Of a stretch of DNA of 7,327 bases, positions 101 to 7,327 are shown piece after piece (the first letter of the stretch is position 1; each line of letters opens with the position of its first letter). Below the pieces are notes generated by a model that saw nothing but the letters and a program-made list of their open reading frames with translations, did no database searches and had not been told where the DNA came from. This DNA is from Lachnospiraceae bacterium (GTDB taxonomy: Bacteria; Bacillota_A; Clostridia; Lachnospirales; Lachnospiraceae). The stretch lies in contig JAFUEG010000140.1 of NCBI GenBank assembly GCA_017464045.1, forward strand, positions 1 through 7,327, written 5' to 3'. The translations under genes were made by a program, and so were the position numbers.

Positions 101-463
101 TTACTGTTTAATAAGGTGATAGCTTGAATAAGTTTCCTCAAGATCAAGATTGTTACCGTTAAGAGTATAGCTATACTCCTTCTTATCCATCCAGCTTTCA
201 AGATCAACAGTTACCTTTCCGCCAGCCTCGTCAAGAGTATAGGTTCCGTTACTGCTAAAGCCGGTAGTATCTCCCTTAAGTGTACACTTACCCTTACCAT
301 CAAAGGTCCATGTCCAGTCTCCGTTAATTTCATCTGTCTGCTTCCATGTTCCTGCAATAGCATCCTTTGAACCACCATCGCTATCTTTACCACATCCGCA
401 AAGTGCTGCTGCAAGCATGACTACACAAAGTAAAAGTGAAAGTTTTTTAGAAAATCTTTTCAT
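101..463 (-). CDS. Small secreted lipoprotein, lipocalin/DUF5640-like
   Basis: This encodes a 120-residue exported lipoprotein. Residues 1-24 are a lipoprotein signal peptide: basic start (MKRFSKK), hydrophobic core and lipobox L21-C22-G23-C24, so C24 should be lipidated and the rest lie outside the membrane. The mature part holds a GTW motif, a TFDGKGK turn and a GTYTLDEAGGKVTVDL stretch. This is the alternating strand pattern of small beta-barrel or lipocalin-like lipoproteins (DUF5640-like) common in Clostridia; its ligand is unknown. I chose the ATG at 461-463 because GGAGGA lies about 7 bases before it; an in-frame upstream ATG adds ten residues in front of the signal peptide and has no such site. 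It stands alone, with a TATAAT upstream and repeat array A further up. The lipoprotein call is firm; the fold is an inference. Confidence 0.85.
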   Translation of the reverse strand: MKRFSKKLSLLLCVVMLAAALCGCGKDSDGGSKDAIAGTWKQTDEINGDWTWTFDGKGKCTLKGDTTGFSSNGTYTLDEAGGKVTVDLESWMDKKEYSYTLNGNNLDLEETYSSYHLIKQ

Positions 464-504: not shown

Positions 505-584
505 AAACCATGTATGACATCTATGATTTACTTAGGTTTACTTCCTTTCAAATGTATATGTTAACACAAACAAAAAAATTTTTT

Positions 585-666
585 TATCCTCCAAGTCGGA
601 CAAATTAAGGGGTGATTTTTAACCAAGTAAGGCAAATTCGACCCCTTTTTTTGACCAAGTTGGACA
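585..666. repeat. Repeat array A: three units, 32-bp spacing
   Basis: Three degenerate direct repeats with core CCAAGTyGGACA lie in the 270-bp gap between the lipoprotein gene and the toxin-antitoxin operon. The GGACA (or AGGCA) segment starts at 598, 630 and 662, a spacing of exactly 32 bp, about three helical turns. Spacers are rich in AAGGGG and T runs. The first 50 bp (585-634) closely match 5216-5265 of array B, including TATCCTCC before the first unit and AAGGGGT between units. A further GGACA at 683 is out of register and may be chance. The array lies 120-200 bp upstream of the lipoprotein start codon, which suggests a multi-site operator. There is no coding potential, and this is not a CRISPR array. 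Confidence 0.75.
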
Positions 667-697
667 TTTTAGTGACTGAAAAGGACAGATGAACAAT

Positions 698-1691: not shown

Positions 1692-1827
1692 TTACAGTTC
1701 ACCATAAGGCTCAAGTGCAACCGCAGCCCTTCTGTTAAGCTCTGTTCTGTCACCATATCTTCTGAATTTCATACATACGATTGAAATAGTATTAATACAA
1801 TGGTATTTATGCTCCTCGCTTTTATTA
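1692..1827 (-). pseudogene. Decayed 3' copy of the DUF4428 gene
   Basis: Bases 1692-1758 match 3633-3699, the 3' end of the intact DUF4428 gene, at 66 of 67 positions, so the last 21 codons and the stop survive (TELNRRAAVALEPYGEL). After a 142-bp deletion, 1758-1788 matches 3842-3872 at 29 of 31. After a second deletion of about 70 bp, roughly 1796-1827 matches the area around 3944-3972 more loosely. The first deletion is not a multiple of three, so the surviving pieces are out of frame with one another. Nothing of the 5' half is visible. It is a dead paralogue fragment in the same orientation as the intact gene, 1.9 kb away, with the AlbA_2 regulator between the copies. Confidence 0.85.
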
Positions 1828-1847: not shown

Positions 1848-2016
1848 AACTATACCAATTAACTATGTCACAACTATATCATAACTGTCACAGTCAACTA
1901 TATCAAGACGTCAAAAGTCCTTATATTCTATGTTTTTTAGATCCATCAGTTGATATTAACTATACCACAACTATACCATTAACTATACCAATCTGACATA
2001 GTTATTTGGTATAGTT
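1848..2016. repeat. Iterated 10-mer TGGTATAGTT cluster
   Basis: AACTATACCA (TGGTATAGTT on the other strand) occurs exactly at 1848-1857, 1958-1967, 1969-1978 and 1981-1990, and inverted at 2007-2016. Close variants are AACTATGTCA (1861-1870, inverted at 1994-2003) and AACTATATCA (1872-1881, 1896-1905), with a weaker one near 1883. Within each sub-cluster, steps are 11-13 bp, about one helical turn. The last direct copy and the inverted copy form an 11-bp perfect stem (1981-1991 with 2006-2016) that overlaps the stop codon of the AlbA_2-type gene. No T run follows on the minus strand, so it is a poor intrinsic terminator. Together with the remnant it accounts for most of the gene-free stretch from 1692 to 2014. 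Confidence 0.75.
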
Positions 2017-3382
2017 AAACTGAAAAATATTTTTGGTTTCTACTTGTAGGTTTATCCGGCAACGTCTGTTTTAACTTGCCCTCCGTCATCAAAACGTCCA
2101 TATATTTTCGTTTCAATGTTGATTTACTCTTAATACCTGTAAAGTCCATAATCTCTTTAGGAGAGCGTGGGATTTTGCAAAAATCAAGAATCCTGCTTTT
2201 CATATCTTCTGCTTCAATCTCTCCGGCACTCCACATACCTTGAGTATCCTTTTTCATCAACGAAATATAAGCATCGCAAGCCTTACAATAAACCATAATT
2301 CCATCTTCACTAATGTCGTATTCGGGCAATTCACCTTTATATTCATTACACGCTACCTTTATTTTGTCAAAGCCTCGTCCCCATGCCTCAATCATTCCAC
2401 TCAAAAAGAAAATGTTTGCAAGTTTTGGATTAAAAGGCTTTGAAGAATGCTTTTTAAAAAGTTGTTCCGCCGTCTGTAGTTTTAAAGGCATTATACCGTC
2501 ATTCCATATATAAATTTTGTCATTATATACACTAATCTGGATTGGTGTACAGCCACTGAAATTCTTATGGACACATGCATTCAATAAAATCTCTCTAAAT
2601 CCATCTCGATGGAACATAAACTGCTCTTTCCTGAAAATCCCCTCATAAGAAATATATGCCTTAAGATATTTTGTATAAACCAAATCCACAGCTCTGTCCA
2701 CCTGCAAGATTAACGGTCCATGTATCTCATCTTGATATTTCAGATCAGAATCGGATTCTCCGAAAAATCCAATTTTAATGTACGAACCTGCTACCCATTT
2801 TTCCGGATCAGGATAAAAAGCAAGCATGGCAGCTCTTACCAAATAACCATTTTCGTCAACAAGATGAAGATTATCCATCAAAATATCGTCCGACACAGCT
2901 ACATCTTCTTTTGAAAGTCTTCCCTTTATAACTGCCTTTTCCTTAAAATACTTAATTGCTTCCTGACTTAAATCTTCAACCTTTAATTTGGGAATCGGTA
3001 TACCATCCCAAGTTTTCCCCTGTGACATCAGTAGTTTTCTGTCAAGTTCTGCTCCCGTAATCTCATGCATAGTGCTACCCGAACGATAATAATACTTTCC
3101 GTGATAGCTGATAAGTGATGGATATTTGTCAACAACGATTTCAATATAATCAAGACCATTTTCTGTATGAAGATTTACATCAGCAATAATGCCCATACCA
3201 GACGTTATGCCATTTGGAATATCCTCCAATAGTTTCTTGCTGTCCTCGACACCGACAACATTTCCATCATCATCTTTGCCTATGTATAAAGTTCCACCCT
3301 GTGCATTAGCATACCCACAAATCCATTTAAGGTATTCTTTTCTCCATGACTGTTTCCATTCTATTGTCTGATGCTCTGCCAT
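2015..3382 (-). CDS. AlbA_2 / HATPase_c_4 / winged-helix regulator
   Basis: A 455-residue cytoplasmic protein of the COG2865 type (annotated as AlbA_2-domain transcriptional regulators or RecG-like ATP-binding proteins). Residues 5-120 are the AlbA_2 (Schlafen-like) domain: EWKQSW, then ICGYANAQGGTLYIGKDDDG, ending RSGSTMHEITG. Residues 255-350 are an HATPase_c_4-like domain: REILLNACVHKNF (263-275), IWNDGIMPL (292-300), HSSKPFNP (312-319) and SGMIEAWGRGFDKI (328-341). A winged helix follows at about 395-455 (PRSPKEIMDFTGIKSKSTLKR, ending in TLPDKPTSRNQKY). The family is linked to DNA binding and to defence or mobile loci, but the biochemical role is mostly unproven. The ATG at 3380-3382 has GGAGGTG six bases upstream. 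Its 3' end runs into the 10-mer cluster and the gene lies between two copies of a DUF4428 gene end, which suggests accessory DNA. Confidence 0.88.
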   Translation of the reverse strand: MAEHQTIEWKQSWRKEYLKWICGYANAQGGTLYIGKDDDGNVVGVEDSKKLLEDIPNGITSGMGIIADVNLHTENGLDYIEIVVDKYPSLISYHGKYYYRSGSTMHEITGAELDRKLLMSQGKTWDGIPIPKLKVEDLSQEAIKYFKEKAVIKGRLSKEDVAVSDDILMDNLHLVDENGYLVRAAMLAFYPDPEKWVAGSYIKIGFFGESDSDLKYQDEIHGPLILQVDRAVDLVYTKYLKAYISYEGIFRKEQFMFHRDGFREILLNACVHKNFSGCTPIQISVYNDKIYIWNDGIMPLKLQTAEQLFKKHSSKPFNPKLANIFFLSGMIEAWGRGFDKIKVACNEYKGELPEYDISEDGIMVYCKACDAYISLMKKDTQGMWSAGEIEAEDMKSRILDFCKIPRSPKEIMDFTGIKSKSTLKRKYMDVLMTEGKLKQTLPDKPTSRNQKYFSV

Positions 3383-3632: not shown

Positions 3633-4388
3633 TTACAGTCCACCATAAGGCTCAAGTGCAACCGCAGCCCTTCTGTTAAGCTCTGTTCTGTCACCATATA
3701 TAGCAACGTCCAAGCTGTTAACTGCCTCTGCAGCCTTATCCTCGGCATCCTCTGCACCATTCTTTACTGCCTTAACTCCGGCAGCCATCTCCTTTGCGGC
3801 ATTGATCTGGTTCTTCCAGGTATTACCGATATTGCCAAGAGTCTTCTGAATTCCATACAGACGATTGAAATAATCAGCAAGCTTCTTTGGTGTGTTAAAA
3901 GCATAATAAAAATCAGAAAGTCCCATCGTATCCTTAAATGCAAAATGTATATACTTCTCGCTTTGATTAGCAGATGTACCATCCGGAAGCTTATCAATCT
4001 TTTCTTCAGTATAGCTAAGCAAATCTCCAAGTCTGTAAACACAAGCCTGTGGATAATATTTGCCAAATACAAAGAACTTGTATGAAGCCTCTGCCAAAGC
4101 TATAAGTCCCAGATTCTCCAATACATAAATGCTGCCGCCAAACTGTACAGGACGCTGCTTTTTGCTCGCCTTTAAACGAGGTACAAATAAATCGTTAAAT
4201 ATCTTTGTTCCCTTTTCCACCTGGGCGATGTGAGCATTTACATCATCAAGTGTTAAATGCATAAAGCTAAAATACTTTTTCATTCCCTTCTTCTGACAGT
4301 TCTTTCTGCAAATGTAATTTCCGTCTGTTAATTTTTGAGATTGAATAACATTAATCTCTGCACCGCATATTGCACATGTATGTGCCAT
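3633..4388 (-). CDS. DUF4428 zinc-ribbon protein
   Basis: A 251-residue protein beginning MAHTCAICGAEINV. The N-terminal module has C5-x2-C8 and C27-x3-C31 (KLTDGNYICRKNC), the layout of DUF4428, a small zinc-ribbon-like domain found mostly in Firmicutes. The middle (about 65-185) contains VPRLKASKKQRPVQFGGSIYV-like beta-rich sequence typical of the PH-like or unnamed domain that follows DUF4428. The C-terminus (200-251) is Ala/Glu/Lys-rich, probably helical, and ends RTELNRRAAVALEPYGGL. No signal peptide or membrane segment is visible; its function is unknown. I chose the ATG at 4386-4388 because it begins right before the zinc ribbon and has AAGGGGTG about 7 bases upstream. An alternative ATG at 4406 adds six residues but would use that same purine tract as coding sequence. 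A decayed paralogue of its 3' end lies at 1692. Confidence 0.8.
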   Translation of the reverse strand: MAHTCAICGAEINVIQSQKLTDGNYICRKNCQKKGMKKYFSFMHLTLDDVNAHIAQVEKGTKIFNDLFVPRLKASKKQRPVQFGGSIYVLENLGLIALAEASYKFFVFGKYYPQACVYRLGDLLSYTEEKIDKLPDGTSANQSEKYIHFAFKDTMGLSDFYYAFNTPKKLADYFNRLYGIQKTLGNIGNTWKNQINAAKEMAAGVKAVKNGAEDAEDKAAEAVNSLDVAIYGDRTELNRRAAVALEPYGGL

Positions 4389-4464: not shown

Positions 4465-5130
4465 CTAATTGCTAAATGTTATAGAACTGATTACATCCTG
4501 TACTTCTGTATCAGAGAAAGTCGATTCAACATTTTCTACAGAAAGATCTGCTGGGAAAAAGCTAATTTCAACCATCTTTCCCTCTCCGAGTACATCACTT
4601 GCATCTATAAAGTATCTATAACCGTGAAGATCTCCGGAACCATCACCCCACTTATATTCAAGCTGTAATGCTTCTTTACCGCCTATAACTGTATCACCAA
4701 CAATAGGTCTTGAACCGCTCTTCATGTAAGTTGAAAAATCAGCAAATGTTGTACTTGTCGAATCACCATATCTTGAATAAGAATCAGTATTGATTGCAGC
4801 TACAACCTTATCACTCTTTAAATATAAACCGCCATCAATATTAGTATTATCAAACGGCTTTGTATCTGTAAATTCATAATTTGAGCCTTCTGGAACAACA
4901 ATAGTTATATTAAATTGTTTTCCATAAATATCAGCAGCATAAGTTATTTCCTGTCCTGCCGGTGCAGCCTCTGTCACTTCTTCTGTTGCAGCTTCTGTAG
5001 TTACTTCCTCTGTTACATCATTTGCAGCAGCAGTTGTCTTGTCATCGCTTGACTCATCCTTTCCGCAAGCTGTAAGTCCTACAAGACACATTGCCATAGC
5101 AAGTGTAAGTGTCAAAATCTTTTTTCTCAT
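4465..5130 (-). CDS. Secreted lipoprotein with Thr/Glu/Ala linker
   Basis: A 221-residue exported lipoprotein. The signal peptide begins MRKKILTLTLAMAM and ends at lipobox L19-T20-A21-C22, so C22 is the likely lipidated residue. Residues 24-58 form a low-complexity, acidic Thr/Glu/Ala linker with repeats such as TEEVTTEAATEEVTEAA, which probably holds the domain away from the membrane through the wall. The C-terminal 160 residues are beta-rich (ITYAADIYGKQFNITIVV, then a VVAAINTDSYSRYGDS segment and a final VQDVISSITFSN helix). They resemble the globular parts of many uncharacterised Clostridia lipoproteins; I recognise no named family. The start is set by GAGAGG about 9 bases upstream and by the signal peptide. 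It is divergent from the response-regulator gene, with repeat array B between them. The lipoprotein call is firm; the function is unknown. Confidence 0.85.
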   Translation of the reverse strand: MRKKILTLTLAMAMCLVGLTACGKDESSDDKTTAAANDVTEEVTTEAATEEVTEAAPAGQEITYAADIYGKQFNITIVVPEGSNYEFTDTKPFDNTNIDGGLYLKSDKVVAAINTDSYSRYGDSTSTTFADFSTYMKSGSRPIVGDTVIGGKEALQLEYKWGDGSGDLHGYRYFIDASDVLGEGKMVEISFFPADLSVENVESTFSDTEVQDVISSITFSN

Positions 5131-5215
5131 AATCTTCTACCTCTCTTACATAATGTAATAAAAATATAAACAACGGTTTACCTAAAAAACTCTATCACAT
5201 TATTTTTTCTTTTTG

Positions 5216-5357
5216 TATCCTCCCAGGCGGACAAATTTAAGGGGTATTTTTGACCAAATCGGACATTTGCCCCCCATTTGACCGTGTTGGACATTTTAAG
5301 CACCTTTTTTTAACCAAGTCAGTCAGTTTTAATCCTTAATTTTACCCAACTTGGACA
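5216..5357. repeat. Repeat array B: five units, 32/28-bp spacing
   Basis: This 311-bp divergent gap has no gene but holds five degenerate direct repeats with core CCAAnTyGGACA. Their GGACA segments start at 5229, 5261, 5289, 5321 (degenerate, AGTCA) and 5353, giving steps of 32, 28, 32 and 32 bp. Most units are preceded by TGACC, TAACC or ACCC, and spacers carry AAGGGG or TTAAG and T runs. The left 50 bp match array A. The fifth unit ends 7 bp before the -35 of the response-regulator promoter, an activator-like position. The first unit lies about 90 bp upstream of the second lipoprotein's start codon. A multi-site operator controlling one or both divergent genes is the simplest reading. Confidence 0.8.
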
Positions 5358-5364
5358 ATTTATC

Positions 5365-5393
5365 TTGTTTAAAAATTAAACTTATAATATAAT
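5365..5393 (+). promoter_or_regulatory. Promoter of the response-regulator gene
   Basis: TTGTTT (5365-5370), a 17-bp spacer and TATAAT (5388-5393) form a good sigma-A promoter. A second, overlapping TATAAT (5383-5388) has the wrong spacing. Transcription would begin near 5400, giving a leader of about 42 nt with GAGGAGA (5427-5433) eight bases before the ATG. Unit five of array B lies immediately upstream, at roughly -43 to -55. Confidence 0.7.
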
Positions 5394-5441: not shown

Positions 5442-6071
5442 ATGATTAACATAATAGTTATAGATGACCATATTTTGCTTAGGGATATGATTTGCGATAC
5501 CCTTTCAAGAGAAAAGGATTTTAAGGTTATAGGTACAGCTTCCGATGCAAAGGATGCCGTATCACTCTGTGATGAATTAAATCCCGATATGGTTTTGATG
5601 GATATATGTACGGAAAACAATTCAAGCGGTATAGCCTACGGAAAAAAGATAAAGGAAAAATATCCTAAGATTAAGGTAATTGCCATGACAGGCGTGCTTG
5701 ACATTAATTTCATAGATGACGCAAAGGCTGCCAATATAGACAGCTTCGTATATAAGAATATTGGCAAGGACTCACTTGTATCCACATTAAGAAATACCAT
5801 GGATGGCTATTCACTTTATCCTAATATAAGTGTCAATCCTACATCCAAAAAAAATATTCTTACACAGCTTTCGGATAAGGAGCTTGAGGTTTTAACCTCA
5901 TATTGCAAGCTTCTTGACAGAGAGCTTGTGGCAGAGGAACTCGGTATATCCATAAGTACCTTAAAAAGCCACATTTCCTCCATATATCAAAAGACAGGCT
6001 TTGATAACCTCACCAAGCTCGCTATACATTGTATATCAAACGGATTTATAGTACCTAATCTTGAAGAATAA
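5442..6071 (+). CDS. NarL/LuxR-family response regulator
   Basis: A 209-residue two-component response regulator. The receiver domain (1-120) has the acidic pocket D8-D9, phospho-acceptor D54 (MVLMDIC), switch residue T83 (IAMTG) and the conserved K105 (FVYKN). The C-terminal LuxR-type helix-turn-helix spans about 143-206, with LSDKELEVL, then LVAEELGISISTLKSHISSI, where the recognition helix is STLKSHISSIYQKTG. Such proteins are phosphorylated by a HisKA_3-type kinase, dimerise and bind promoter DNA. The likely partner is the kinase gene converging from the right, although the two are not in one operon. The start is set by GAGGAGA eight bases upstream. The gene has its own promoter beside array B, so autoregulation, or control through the array, is possible. 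The family call is very secure; targets are unknown. Confidence 0.95.
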   Translation: MINIIVIDDHILLRDMICDTLSREKDFKVIGTASDAKDAVSLCDELNPDMVLMDICTENNSSGIAYGKKIKEKYPKIKVIAMTGVLDINFIDDAKAANIDSFVYKNIGKDSLVSTLRNTMDGYSLYPNISVNPTSKKNILTQLSDKELEVLTSYCKLLDRELVAEELGISISTLKSHISSIYQKTGFDNLTKLAIHCISNGFIVPNLEE

Positions 6072-6076
6072 TTTAT

Positions 6077-6168
6077 GGGATGAGTTTGCTGTCATATTCA
6101 GGTGCTAAGCATAGCGTTAAGTGGCAACGTGCTATGCGTGTACCTGAATATGACAGCAAAATCATCCC
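6077..6168. terminator. 92-base hairpin between convergent regulator and kinase
   Basis: Left arm 6077-6103 pairs with right arm 6142-6168 over 27 positions with one mismatch (6084/6161). Beyond a small internal loop, 6109-6115 pairs with 6131-6137, leaving an apical loop around 6117-6129. It fills nearly the whole 107-bp gap between the stop codons of the response regulator (6071) and the kinase (6179), so it probably ends both convergent transcripts. The T runs are modest (AATTTTAT on the right, AAATTATTC on the left), so it does not look like a typical intrinsic terminator. A palindromic mobile unit (MITE or REP-like) that settled between the genes is an alternative. Confidence 0.7.
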
Positions 6169-6178
6169 AATTTTATAT

Positions 6179-7327
6179 CTAAGCTGATACTTTTATTATA
6201 AATTCCGGTTCGGTTGTGACAGAAAATGTTCCGTTTATACTCTTTACCTTTCTCCTCATACCCCTTATACCCTCACTTTCGGAAATAATCGGTTTAGGCT
6301 TTGAGCCGTTATTGGTTATAATCATTGAAGTACCATCGGCATTATTATCAAGCCTGATGTCTATTACATTGCTGTCCGCATGTCTTACGGCATTGGTAAC
6401 AGCCTCTCTTATTATCTCAAAGAACACCTTTGCCTTCTCTTTATCGGCAGGCAATTCTCCGTCTACCCTTACGCTTATACCGATATTATTGTTTATTCTT
6501 ACCAGATTATCGAGATTAGCCTTTGAATCCTCACTATCCTCGAAATCAGAAAACATTCCCTTTATCATGAACTTTATCTCTGCAAATCTCTTTTCATCCT
6601 CAATATATTTCATATCCTGATTGAGATATGCCTGAAGTACGGAAAGGTTCTGTCCCAGCAGGTCATGGAATTTATTTTTTACCTTTAGCGTCTGCTCTTC
6701 TTTTTCAAGCTCCTCAAGGTTTTCTATAGTCCACTCCAGCTCTTCGTTGTTTTGGTTAATAAGCTCATTTTGCTTTTCAAGCTTTTGATTGAGCACGTAC
6801 TCCTCATTTATATCTGTAGCAGTAACCTCAAGGCCGTCTCTGCTTATATTAAATAGCCACGCATTGTCATCCACCAAAGCCATATACTCTTTGCCTATCC
6901 TGTTTGAAGAAGCCGCCTTTATATTTTTTATATAGTTATCTGTTATTCCGAGTTTTCCTATAAGTTCATACATAACCATATTTTGAAACATAATCTTGTC
7001 CTTGTTTTTCAGCACAAGTATTCCGGATACGGAATTATCTATCGTATCCTTAATCAGGTTCCTGTCTATGCCTACATTTTTATAATACAACCATTCATAC
7101 AAAGAGGTAAAATCTATAATAATCATAATAAAAATATATGCCCAAATGAGCTTTTTATCATAAATAGGCATCAGTTCTTTTTCGTTGCTGATAAAACATA
7201 ATATCACTGTCCAAATCAAAAATAATATATCCAATATATAAGAGGATGTCTTAATATTTTTCATATGAAGTTTTTTCACAAATAAATACGACTTTATTGC
7301 AATTGTAGATGCAATAAGTATTGCAAA
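6179..7327 (-). CDS. Sensor histidine kinase, HisKA_3 type, 5' partial
   Basis: The reading frame runs open off the right edge, so the N-terminus is missing; a GTG at 7279 is in frame but sits inside a hydrophobic segment (FAILIASTIAIKSYLF before it) and is not the likely start. Counting from that GTG, membrane helices lie at about 13-30 (YILDILFLIWTVILCFI) and 45-64. A PAS-like sensor region follows (78-160), then a coiled-coil signalling helix (163-200), a dimerisation helix with phospho-acceptor H205 (KFHDLLGQNLSVLQ), and an ATPase domain with N-box REAVTNAVRHA (291-301), NNG (323-325) and EGIRGMRRKV (336-345). This is the LiaS/DesK/NarX-like kinase layout that pairs with LuxR-type regulators such as the neighbour at 5442. 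The gene converges on that regulator. The membrane-bound sensor call is secure; the signal is unknown. Confidence 0.92.
   Translation of the reverse strand, partial: FAILIASTIAIKSYLFVKKLHMKNIKTSSYILDILFLIWTVILCFISNEKELMPIYDKKLIWAYIFIMIIIDFTSLYEWLYYKNVGIDRNLIKDTIDNSVSGILVLKNKDKIMFQNMVMYELIGKLGITDNYIKNIKAASSNRIGKEYMALVDDNAWLFNISRDGLEVTATDINEEYVLNQKLEKQNELINQNNEELEWTIENLEELEKEEQTLKVKNKFHDLLGQNLSVLQAYLNQDMKYIEDEKRFAEIKFMIKGMFSDFEDSEDSKANLDNLVRINNNIGISVRVDGELPADKEKAKVFFEIIREAVTNAVRHADSNVIDIRLDNNADGTSMIITNNGSKPKPIISESEGIRGMRRKVKSINGTFSVTTEPEFIIKVSA

Follow-up and report, generated by a model that had tools for sequence, protein, structure and literature searches.

Regularly spaced near-palindromic units upstream of Lachnospiraceae lipoprotein genes: a candidate multi-dimer operator of a NarL/LuxR-type response regulator

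The window, meaning the whole 7,327-nucleotide stretch of Lachnospiraceae DNA analysed here, carries two arrays of one type of 21-base unit (Table 1). Array B, of five units, lies between the minus-strand gene of a 221-amino-acid lipoprotein and a plus-strand response-regulator gene; array A, of three, lies upstream of a DUF5640 lipoprotein gene. The response regulator matches PF00072 (E = 1.9e-18) and PF00196 (E = 2.4e-08), the domain pair of the NarL/FixJ family with its LuxR-type helix-turn-helix (HTH). For the presumed partner kinase, the HATPase_c match scores 23 bits, below the cut-off of 26.4, and 26.7, just above it, in G001, one of three array-bearing relatives (G001, G408 and G409) described below; its UhpB/NarQ/LiaS-like matches fall far under their cut-offs, and an H-box, HDLLGQ, was identified by reading the sequence. 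Between the convergent regulator and kinase genes is a 28-bp inverted repeat (6076-6169; 96% complementary, with 38 bases between the arms) that is perhaps a two-way terminator. The remainder of the window includes a small HTH gene and a Gp49-like gene (734-1404), the latter seemingly split over two overlapping reading frames, which are likely a toxin-antitoxin pair, and a Schlafen/AlbA_2 domain protein with a C-terminal RecG-like ATPase domain (2015-3382). Remnants of the DUF4428 C terminus are found at 1695-1820 of the window and in G408 (L085 413-628), and relatives of the window's DUF4428 gene in G001 and G409 sit directly behind an array.

Table 1. Coordinates of genes, array units and promoter-like elements in the window
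Feature	Coordinates	Strand	Remarks
DUF5640 lipoprotein gene	101..463	-	presumed target of array A
DUF5640 lipoprotein-gene promoter-like element	560..588	-	GATA, 16 bp, TGTGTTA
Array A unit 1	586..606	+	
Array A unit 2	618..638	+	
Array A unit 3	650..670	+	
DUF4428 protein gene	3633..4388	-	co-directional, behind 221-aa lipoprotein gene
221-aa lipoprotein gene	4465..5130	-	presumed target of array B
221-aa lipoprotein-gene promoter-like element	5191..5219	-	GATA (5219-5216), 16 bp, TGTGATA (5199-5193), -10-like GATAGA (5196-5191)
Array B unit 1 (ATCCTCCCAGGCGGACAAATT)	5217..5237	+	promoter-proximal unit of lipoprotein gene
Array B unit 2 (TTTGACCAAATCGGACATTTG)	5249..5269	+	GGGG and CCCC on either side
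Array B unit 3	5277..5297	+	starts 28 bp past unit 2
Array B unit 4	5309..5329	+	core AGTCA instead of GGACA
Array B unit 5	5341..5361	+	adjoins -35-like hexamer of response-regulator gene
Response-regulator-gene promoter-like TTGTTT-17-TATAAT	5365..5393	+	read from sequence; TATAAT 5388-5393
Response regulator gene	5442..6071	+	receiver + GerE/LuxR-type HTH; presumed binder of units
Histidine kinase gene	6179..7279	-	presumed partner kinase; weak HATPase_c match; frame open to window end

The arrays are real and stand above chance. Allowing up to three mismatches, the consensus GACCAAGTYGGACA has eight matches in the window (six on the plus strand and two on the minus strand of the same near-palindromes) against 0.52 expected, a number reached in 0 of 200 window shuffles and one biased towards the window, whose own consensus was used. 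A profile built from 12 units of three other genomes places the eight units of arrays A and B at its eight best plus-strand positions (scores of 15.0-28.3, the next position scoring 9.2), and its five minus-strand matches of at least 10 all fall on the array units; this test is not fully independent, as the source genomes had themselves been found through the window-derived consensus. Across 500 shuffles, the profile gave a mean of 0.80 matches of at least 10 on both strands (maximum of 5) and not one same-strand pair at 32 bp; similar arrays in shuffled sequence, an outcome that a first-pass annotation had named as refuting, were thus not seen. Regular spacing entered neither the match count nor the profile score. 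Tandem Repeats Finder, run at a score of 30, listed neither array.

The unit positions bear out the layout of array B proposed by that annotation, including its steps of 32, 28, 32 and 32 bp. A GGACA core had been assigned to all five units and is present in four, at 5229, 5261, 5289 and 5353; at 5321 the sequence is AGTCA. The units had also been placed mostly on one face of the helix. The 32-bp steps, near three turns, agree with this, but the 28-bp step breaks the register, so that units 3-5 of array B are rotated by about one-third of a turn relative to units 1-2. Across the five arrays with at least three units, counting those of the relatives, 13 of 15 spacings are exactly 32 bp, the other two being 28 and 31 bp, and phase concentration is 0.68 in array B compared with 0.91-0.99 in the other four.

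Arrays of this kind recur sparingly. Within one Lachnospiraceae genus, 3 of the 37 genomes contain four further arrays, all intergenic and upstream of lipoprotein or DUF4428 genes, as the first-pass annotation had anticipated for a scan of related genomes; with the two in the window, this setting holds for 6 of 6 arrays. Its other expectations also held: two of the four lie directly beside a response-regulator gene, and three are phased at 31-32 bp, within the 28-32 bp foreseen, whereas the fourth (the second G409 array) consists of two units 53 bp, or five turns, apart. A middle unit hinted at there by alignment does not score as a unit and was dropped. Among the 37 genomes, a two-unit sequence model gave strong matches only in G001, G408 and G409 (two each, E ≤ 1.1e-6) and weak matches (E ≤ 0.1) in 14 others, the best at 0.0011; a promoter-plus-array model found one array in G001, one in G408 and two in G409 (E ≤ 1.6e-18; next match, 4.7e-4). 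Inspection of three non-array matches of the latter model and of five weak model matches outside the arrays (L153, L155, L160, L096 and L121) revealed no array. Under stricter filters, 397 sampled genomes of the family yielded a strong match in G001 alone and weak ones in 10 others (best, 1.7e-4). This, together with a count of one or two arrays per relative genome, does not fit the general family of intergenic repeats that the first-pass annotation had offered as an alternative. The 21-base pattern with three mismatches matches 96 of the 397 family genomes; a reversed control pattern also matches many of those genomes, and all matches except those in G001 were treated as chance.

A two-unit pattern run over genome contigs returned 18 loci, five of which were read in part (L021, L019, L020, L024 and L031), and among these five only L021, from a Lachnospiraceae genome of roe deer origin, holds a homologous array; the 37 genomes above are those of its genus. 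Other intergenic palindrome arrays occur in three ruminant-gut Clostridia genomes (L019 3600-4110, L020 215-740 and L024 245-500), where many palindromes about 38-40 bp apart centre on CCAAGTTGG or CCAACTTGG; these share similar flanks, and their setting is unlike that of the window. On viral contigs, the pattern gave 13 loci, and the two that were read in part (L001 and L002) are apparent repeats inside phage coding sequence and were rejected. A plasmid search with the intergenic region gave no match, and an open-access literature search returned, among the matches listed, no description of an array of this kind or of a relative. The DUF4428 proteins of G001 and G409 are 99.6% identical; these two genomes look closely related, and the three array genomes may be close kin.

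The arrays hold a fixed position relative to a promoter-like element. In 6 of 6, reading from the first unit towards the target gene, GATA comes next and then, after 16 bases, TGTGATA or something close to it, always at the same distance. If, as we infer, this element acts as an extended -10 promoter whose -35 is poor, transcription of the 221-amino-acid lipoprotein gene would start near 5184. Counted from the start site so placed, the unit centres in five arrays would lie at -42, -74 and about -102 to -106, the longer arrays adding centres at -134 to -138 and at -166 to -170. At the other end of array B, the last unit had been described as abutting the -35 of the response-regulator promoter. 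A -35-like TTGTTT (5365-5370) does adjoin it, but the TTGTTT-17-TATAAT promoter is not in the list that a consensus promoter scanner produced for the window.

The consensus of the 15 inner units, which are all except the first unit in each of the five main arrays, is TTTTGACCAAGTYGGACAWTTT, with a near-palindromic core TGnCCAAsTTGGnCA. Mirrored positions of the inner units are complementary at a level of 0.67, against 0.25 in column permutations, of which 1 in 5,000 reaches 0.67; with the centre left free, the observed best was reached in 2 of 3,000. Columns C-4, T+1 and C+6 are invariant in 15 of 15 inner units, and the T tract that precedes the core varies little or not at all. First units depart from this consensus in their left half (ATCCTNC), have CGGACA in common with it and are less palindromic, at 0.53. 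Orientation is the same for all 20 units of the five main arrays, with T tracts flanking the unit on a single strand; this uniform orientation and the unmirrored T tracts indicate that the unit is not a purely symmetric site.

Such asymmetry would be expected if each unit were a direct-repeat site taking one monomer of a LytTR-domain regulator, as for VirR or AgrA, an explanation that we consider unlikely. The core CAAGTTGGA resembles the core of LytTR sites, and LytTR genes are present in 17 of 17 genus genomes tested (of the 37), including the three with arrays. They are, however, equally common in the 14 tested genomes without a strong array match (2-17 per genome compared with 4-8), the array-linked gene is not a LytTR gene but has a GerE HTH, and the inner units are near-palindromic. 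VirR boxes (PMC2838878) are likewise paired direct repeats just upstream of a -35, yet they number two and are 7-8 nucleotides apart, whereas each of the five main arrays has three to five units with centres 32 bp apart.

The T tracts could themselves be the conserved element if, phased at 32 bp, they bent the DNA and so aided polymerase or a general DNA-bending protein, with the GACC-GGACA core being secondary. Four T columns before the second unit are indeed invariant among 13 aligned pairs, but the core columns C-4 and C+6 are equally invariant and carry more information than any T column, and we regard conserved curvature as a highly improbable explanation.

Folding of the array as RNA or as an extruded hairpin, in the manner of an attenuator or terminator, is similarly improbable in our judgement. 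In this explanation, units 1 and 3 would pair, as would the GGGG and CCCC blocks that flank unit 2. These blocks are found in array A (609-645), array B (5241-5275) and G408 (L086 7493-7530) but are missing from the G001 array, and they may possibly be a second binding site. Folding is better than that of shuffled sequence for both strands of array A (z = -3.6 and -4.7) and one strand of the G408 array (-3.8), only weakly so in G001 (-2.2) and no better in array B (-0.7 and -0.9) or G409 (0.2). Compensated changes in at least one of six sequences affect 4 of 16 predicted consensus pairs, against an unfavourable overall covariation term (+0.7); palindromes in repeats pair with one another even without selection on RNA, and the window has no Rfam match at gathering scores.

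Orthologs of the window regulator at 63-90% identity occur in 3 of the 37 genus genomes, exactly those with arrays; four other genus genomes have only paralogs at 28-36%. No close ortholog beyond those in G001, G408 and G409 was found among 397 genomes of the family, 378 of the order and 295 relatives or on viral contigs. A protein database search gave 317 relatives at E ≤ 1e-30, the best 120 of the 317 being 60-91% identical and including orthologs at 60-72%. Sixteen 350-bp regions upstream of the 28-36% paralogs contained no array (0 of 16), as scored with a profile in which three rows were out of register by two bases. An unrelated imperfect repeat with a lag of 42 was seen during that scan in L079 and L080.

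At all five regulator loci (one each in the window, G408 and G001 and two in G409), an array is nearby. It is directly divergent from the regulator gene in three of the six cases, array B and both G409 arrays, and nearby in the others, whereas the lipoprotein or DUF4428 gene is the constant partner (6 of 6). A distance of 4.8 kb lies between array A and the window regulator gene. In G001, array and regulator gene have a single gene inserted between them (L084 7107-7994), for which Pfam gave no match at its cut-off. The G408 array and regulator gene are on separate contigs, close to the end of the first and to the start of the second, respectively, and these contig ends carry residues 103-295 (L086 7769-8317) and 1-74 (L085 1-231) of a relative of that inserted gene. 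As these are complementary parts of one gene, the G408 array and regulator gene appear to be linked across the same insertion, probably about 1.5 kb apart. With G408 so placed, no array seen is more than about 5 kb away from such a regulator gene; because the two are linked, their co-occurrence across genomes is conserved linkage and not a separate line of evidence.

The regulator gene of G408 has directly upstream one weak unit (12.3, from the same misregistered profile), with the same promoter downstream of it, and an adjoining DUF4428 fragment. Because this remnant directly adjoins the one array unit left there, part of an array may have been lost by deletion. The second regulator copy of G409 (L088 6670-7329, minus strand) has lost the phosphorylatable aspartate through a two-residue deletion at the usual Asp54, and DN replaces the acidic pair at positions 8-9; judged from its residues, it is a degenerate receiver beside a decayed array.

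Fragments and insertions of this kind raise the possibility that the arrays are a local repeat or mobile-element remnant, without regulatory role and kept by duplication at this locus. The arrays are near one locus type, close to DUF4428 fragments (window 1695-1820 and L085 413-628) and inserted genes (L084; L085/L086). Set against this are the one or two arrays per relative genome and the single fixed promoter distance upstream of the lipoprotein or DUF4428 gene in all six, and we hold an origin as a mere remnant to be extremely unlikely.

The explanation that we favour, with somewhat better than even confidence, is that the array is a multi-dimer operator of the adjacent NarL/LuxR-type regulator, a distant relative of VraR and LiaR. 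The multi-site operator suggested in the first-pass annotation is well supported by the further intergenic arrays upstream of lipoprotein and DUF4428 genes, and the cooperative or graded control proposed with it may follow from such an arrangement. Each unit (TTTTGACCAAGTYGGACAWTTT) would take one phosphorylated regulator dimer, and the three-turn spacing would bring adjacent dimers into contact. The promoter-proximal unit, centred at about -42, would cover the poor -35 of the lipoprotein gene, where a dimer could contact RNA polymerase; the upstream units, at about -74, -102/-106 and beyond, would add occupancy and thus a steeper or graded response, so that activation of the lipoprotein promoter would involve three to five dimers. 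The far unit of array B, beside the regulator-gene promoter, could provide feedback, of either sign, on the regulator gene, and the signal may by analogy be envelope-related. Several features sit uneasily with this operator model: the units run one way and are flanked by T tracts on a single strand, neither of which a purely palindromic dimer site would need; the first units are less palindromic; array B has a phase break; and the G408 regulator gene has just one weak unit directly upstream.

A bolder extension, which we put forward tentatively and consider rather unlikely, is that the array, its weak promoter and the lipoprotein signal sequence move together as a transferable cassette, conserved while the mature lipoprotein behind it changes. 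Recombination immediately after the signal peptide would then add new surface lipoproteins to one two-component system, with array length (three to five dimers) setting the gain of each. The proposal is based on two lipoprotein pairs. In the pair behind array A and the G408 array, the first 49 residues are 53% identical and no match was reported past them; in the pair behind array B and the second G409 array, identity is 69% across the first 42. At the DNA level, the array A and G408 regions are 75% identical over 295 bp comprising array, promoter and gene start. Against a cassette, three more lipoproteins from these gene rows in G001 and G408, none encoded first behind an array, share 33-59% with these proteins over their first 25-57 residues, and the G408 lipoprotein resembles the second G409 one along its whole length (22.5%, E = 1.5e-7).

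If the operator model is correct, these loci offer a simple natural series of similar promoters, with three, four or five regularly spaced dimer sites for a single regulator, in which to ask how the number of sites and their helical phase determine how steeply a two-component system responds. For an uncharacterized Lachnospiraceae system, a binding site and a regulon of very few genes would then be predicted, with a hint of how surface lipoproteins come under common control.

Among solved structures, only three VraR sequences match the window regulator at E ≤ 1e-15, and the regulator shares with the LiaR/VraR type of the NarL/FixJ family a receiver and a GerE HTH. The best NCBIfam match is MadR, at 85.7 bits against a cut-off of 300, with no LiaR/VraR model among the 25 matches listed of 64. 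According to PMC7191749 and PMC4447274, LiaR/VraR operators are inverted repeats with an adjacent A/T tract bound by phosphorylation-driven dimers; the former describes binding of LiaR and VraR to primary and secondary sites, and the latter a requirement of Streptococcus mutans LiaR for an inverted repeat and a neighbouring A4 stretch, comparable to the invariant T tract seen here. By eye, the unit consensus fits neither form of the LiaR/CesR consensus printed there, T(X)4C(X)4G(X)4A or TCAGHCTnnAGDCTGA (PMC7191749, PMC4447274). Unlike LiaR/VraR operators, the present arrays have three to five sites at a regular 32 bp and another core sequence, and the predicted targets, lipoprotein and DUF4428 genes near the regulator gene, also differ. 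No LiaF-like protein, as in LiaFSR or VraTSR systems, was recognized; a 501-residue protein beside the G001 kinase has no Pfam or NCBIfam match.

A parallel in position is offered by the VirR boxes of Clostridium perfringens, which PMC2838878 describes as two imperfect direct repeats 7-8 nucleotides apart, at a fixed position just upstream of the promoter, as here. VirR, however, has a LytTR domain, whereas the regulator here has a GerE HTH, no LytTR domain and up to five near-palindromic units. In the NarL heptamer arrays of E. coli, a promoter has several sites at irregular spacing. Several sites per promoter for one NarL-family regulator is what we propose here, but with 13 of 15 steps at exactly 32 bp. 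Multi-dimer operators of NarL/LuxR-type regulators are known in kind, and it is the regular spacing and the number of sites that are unusual in these arrays.
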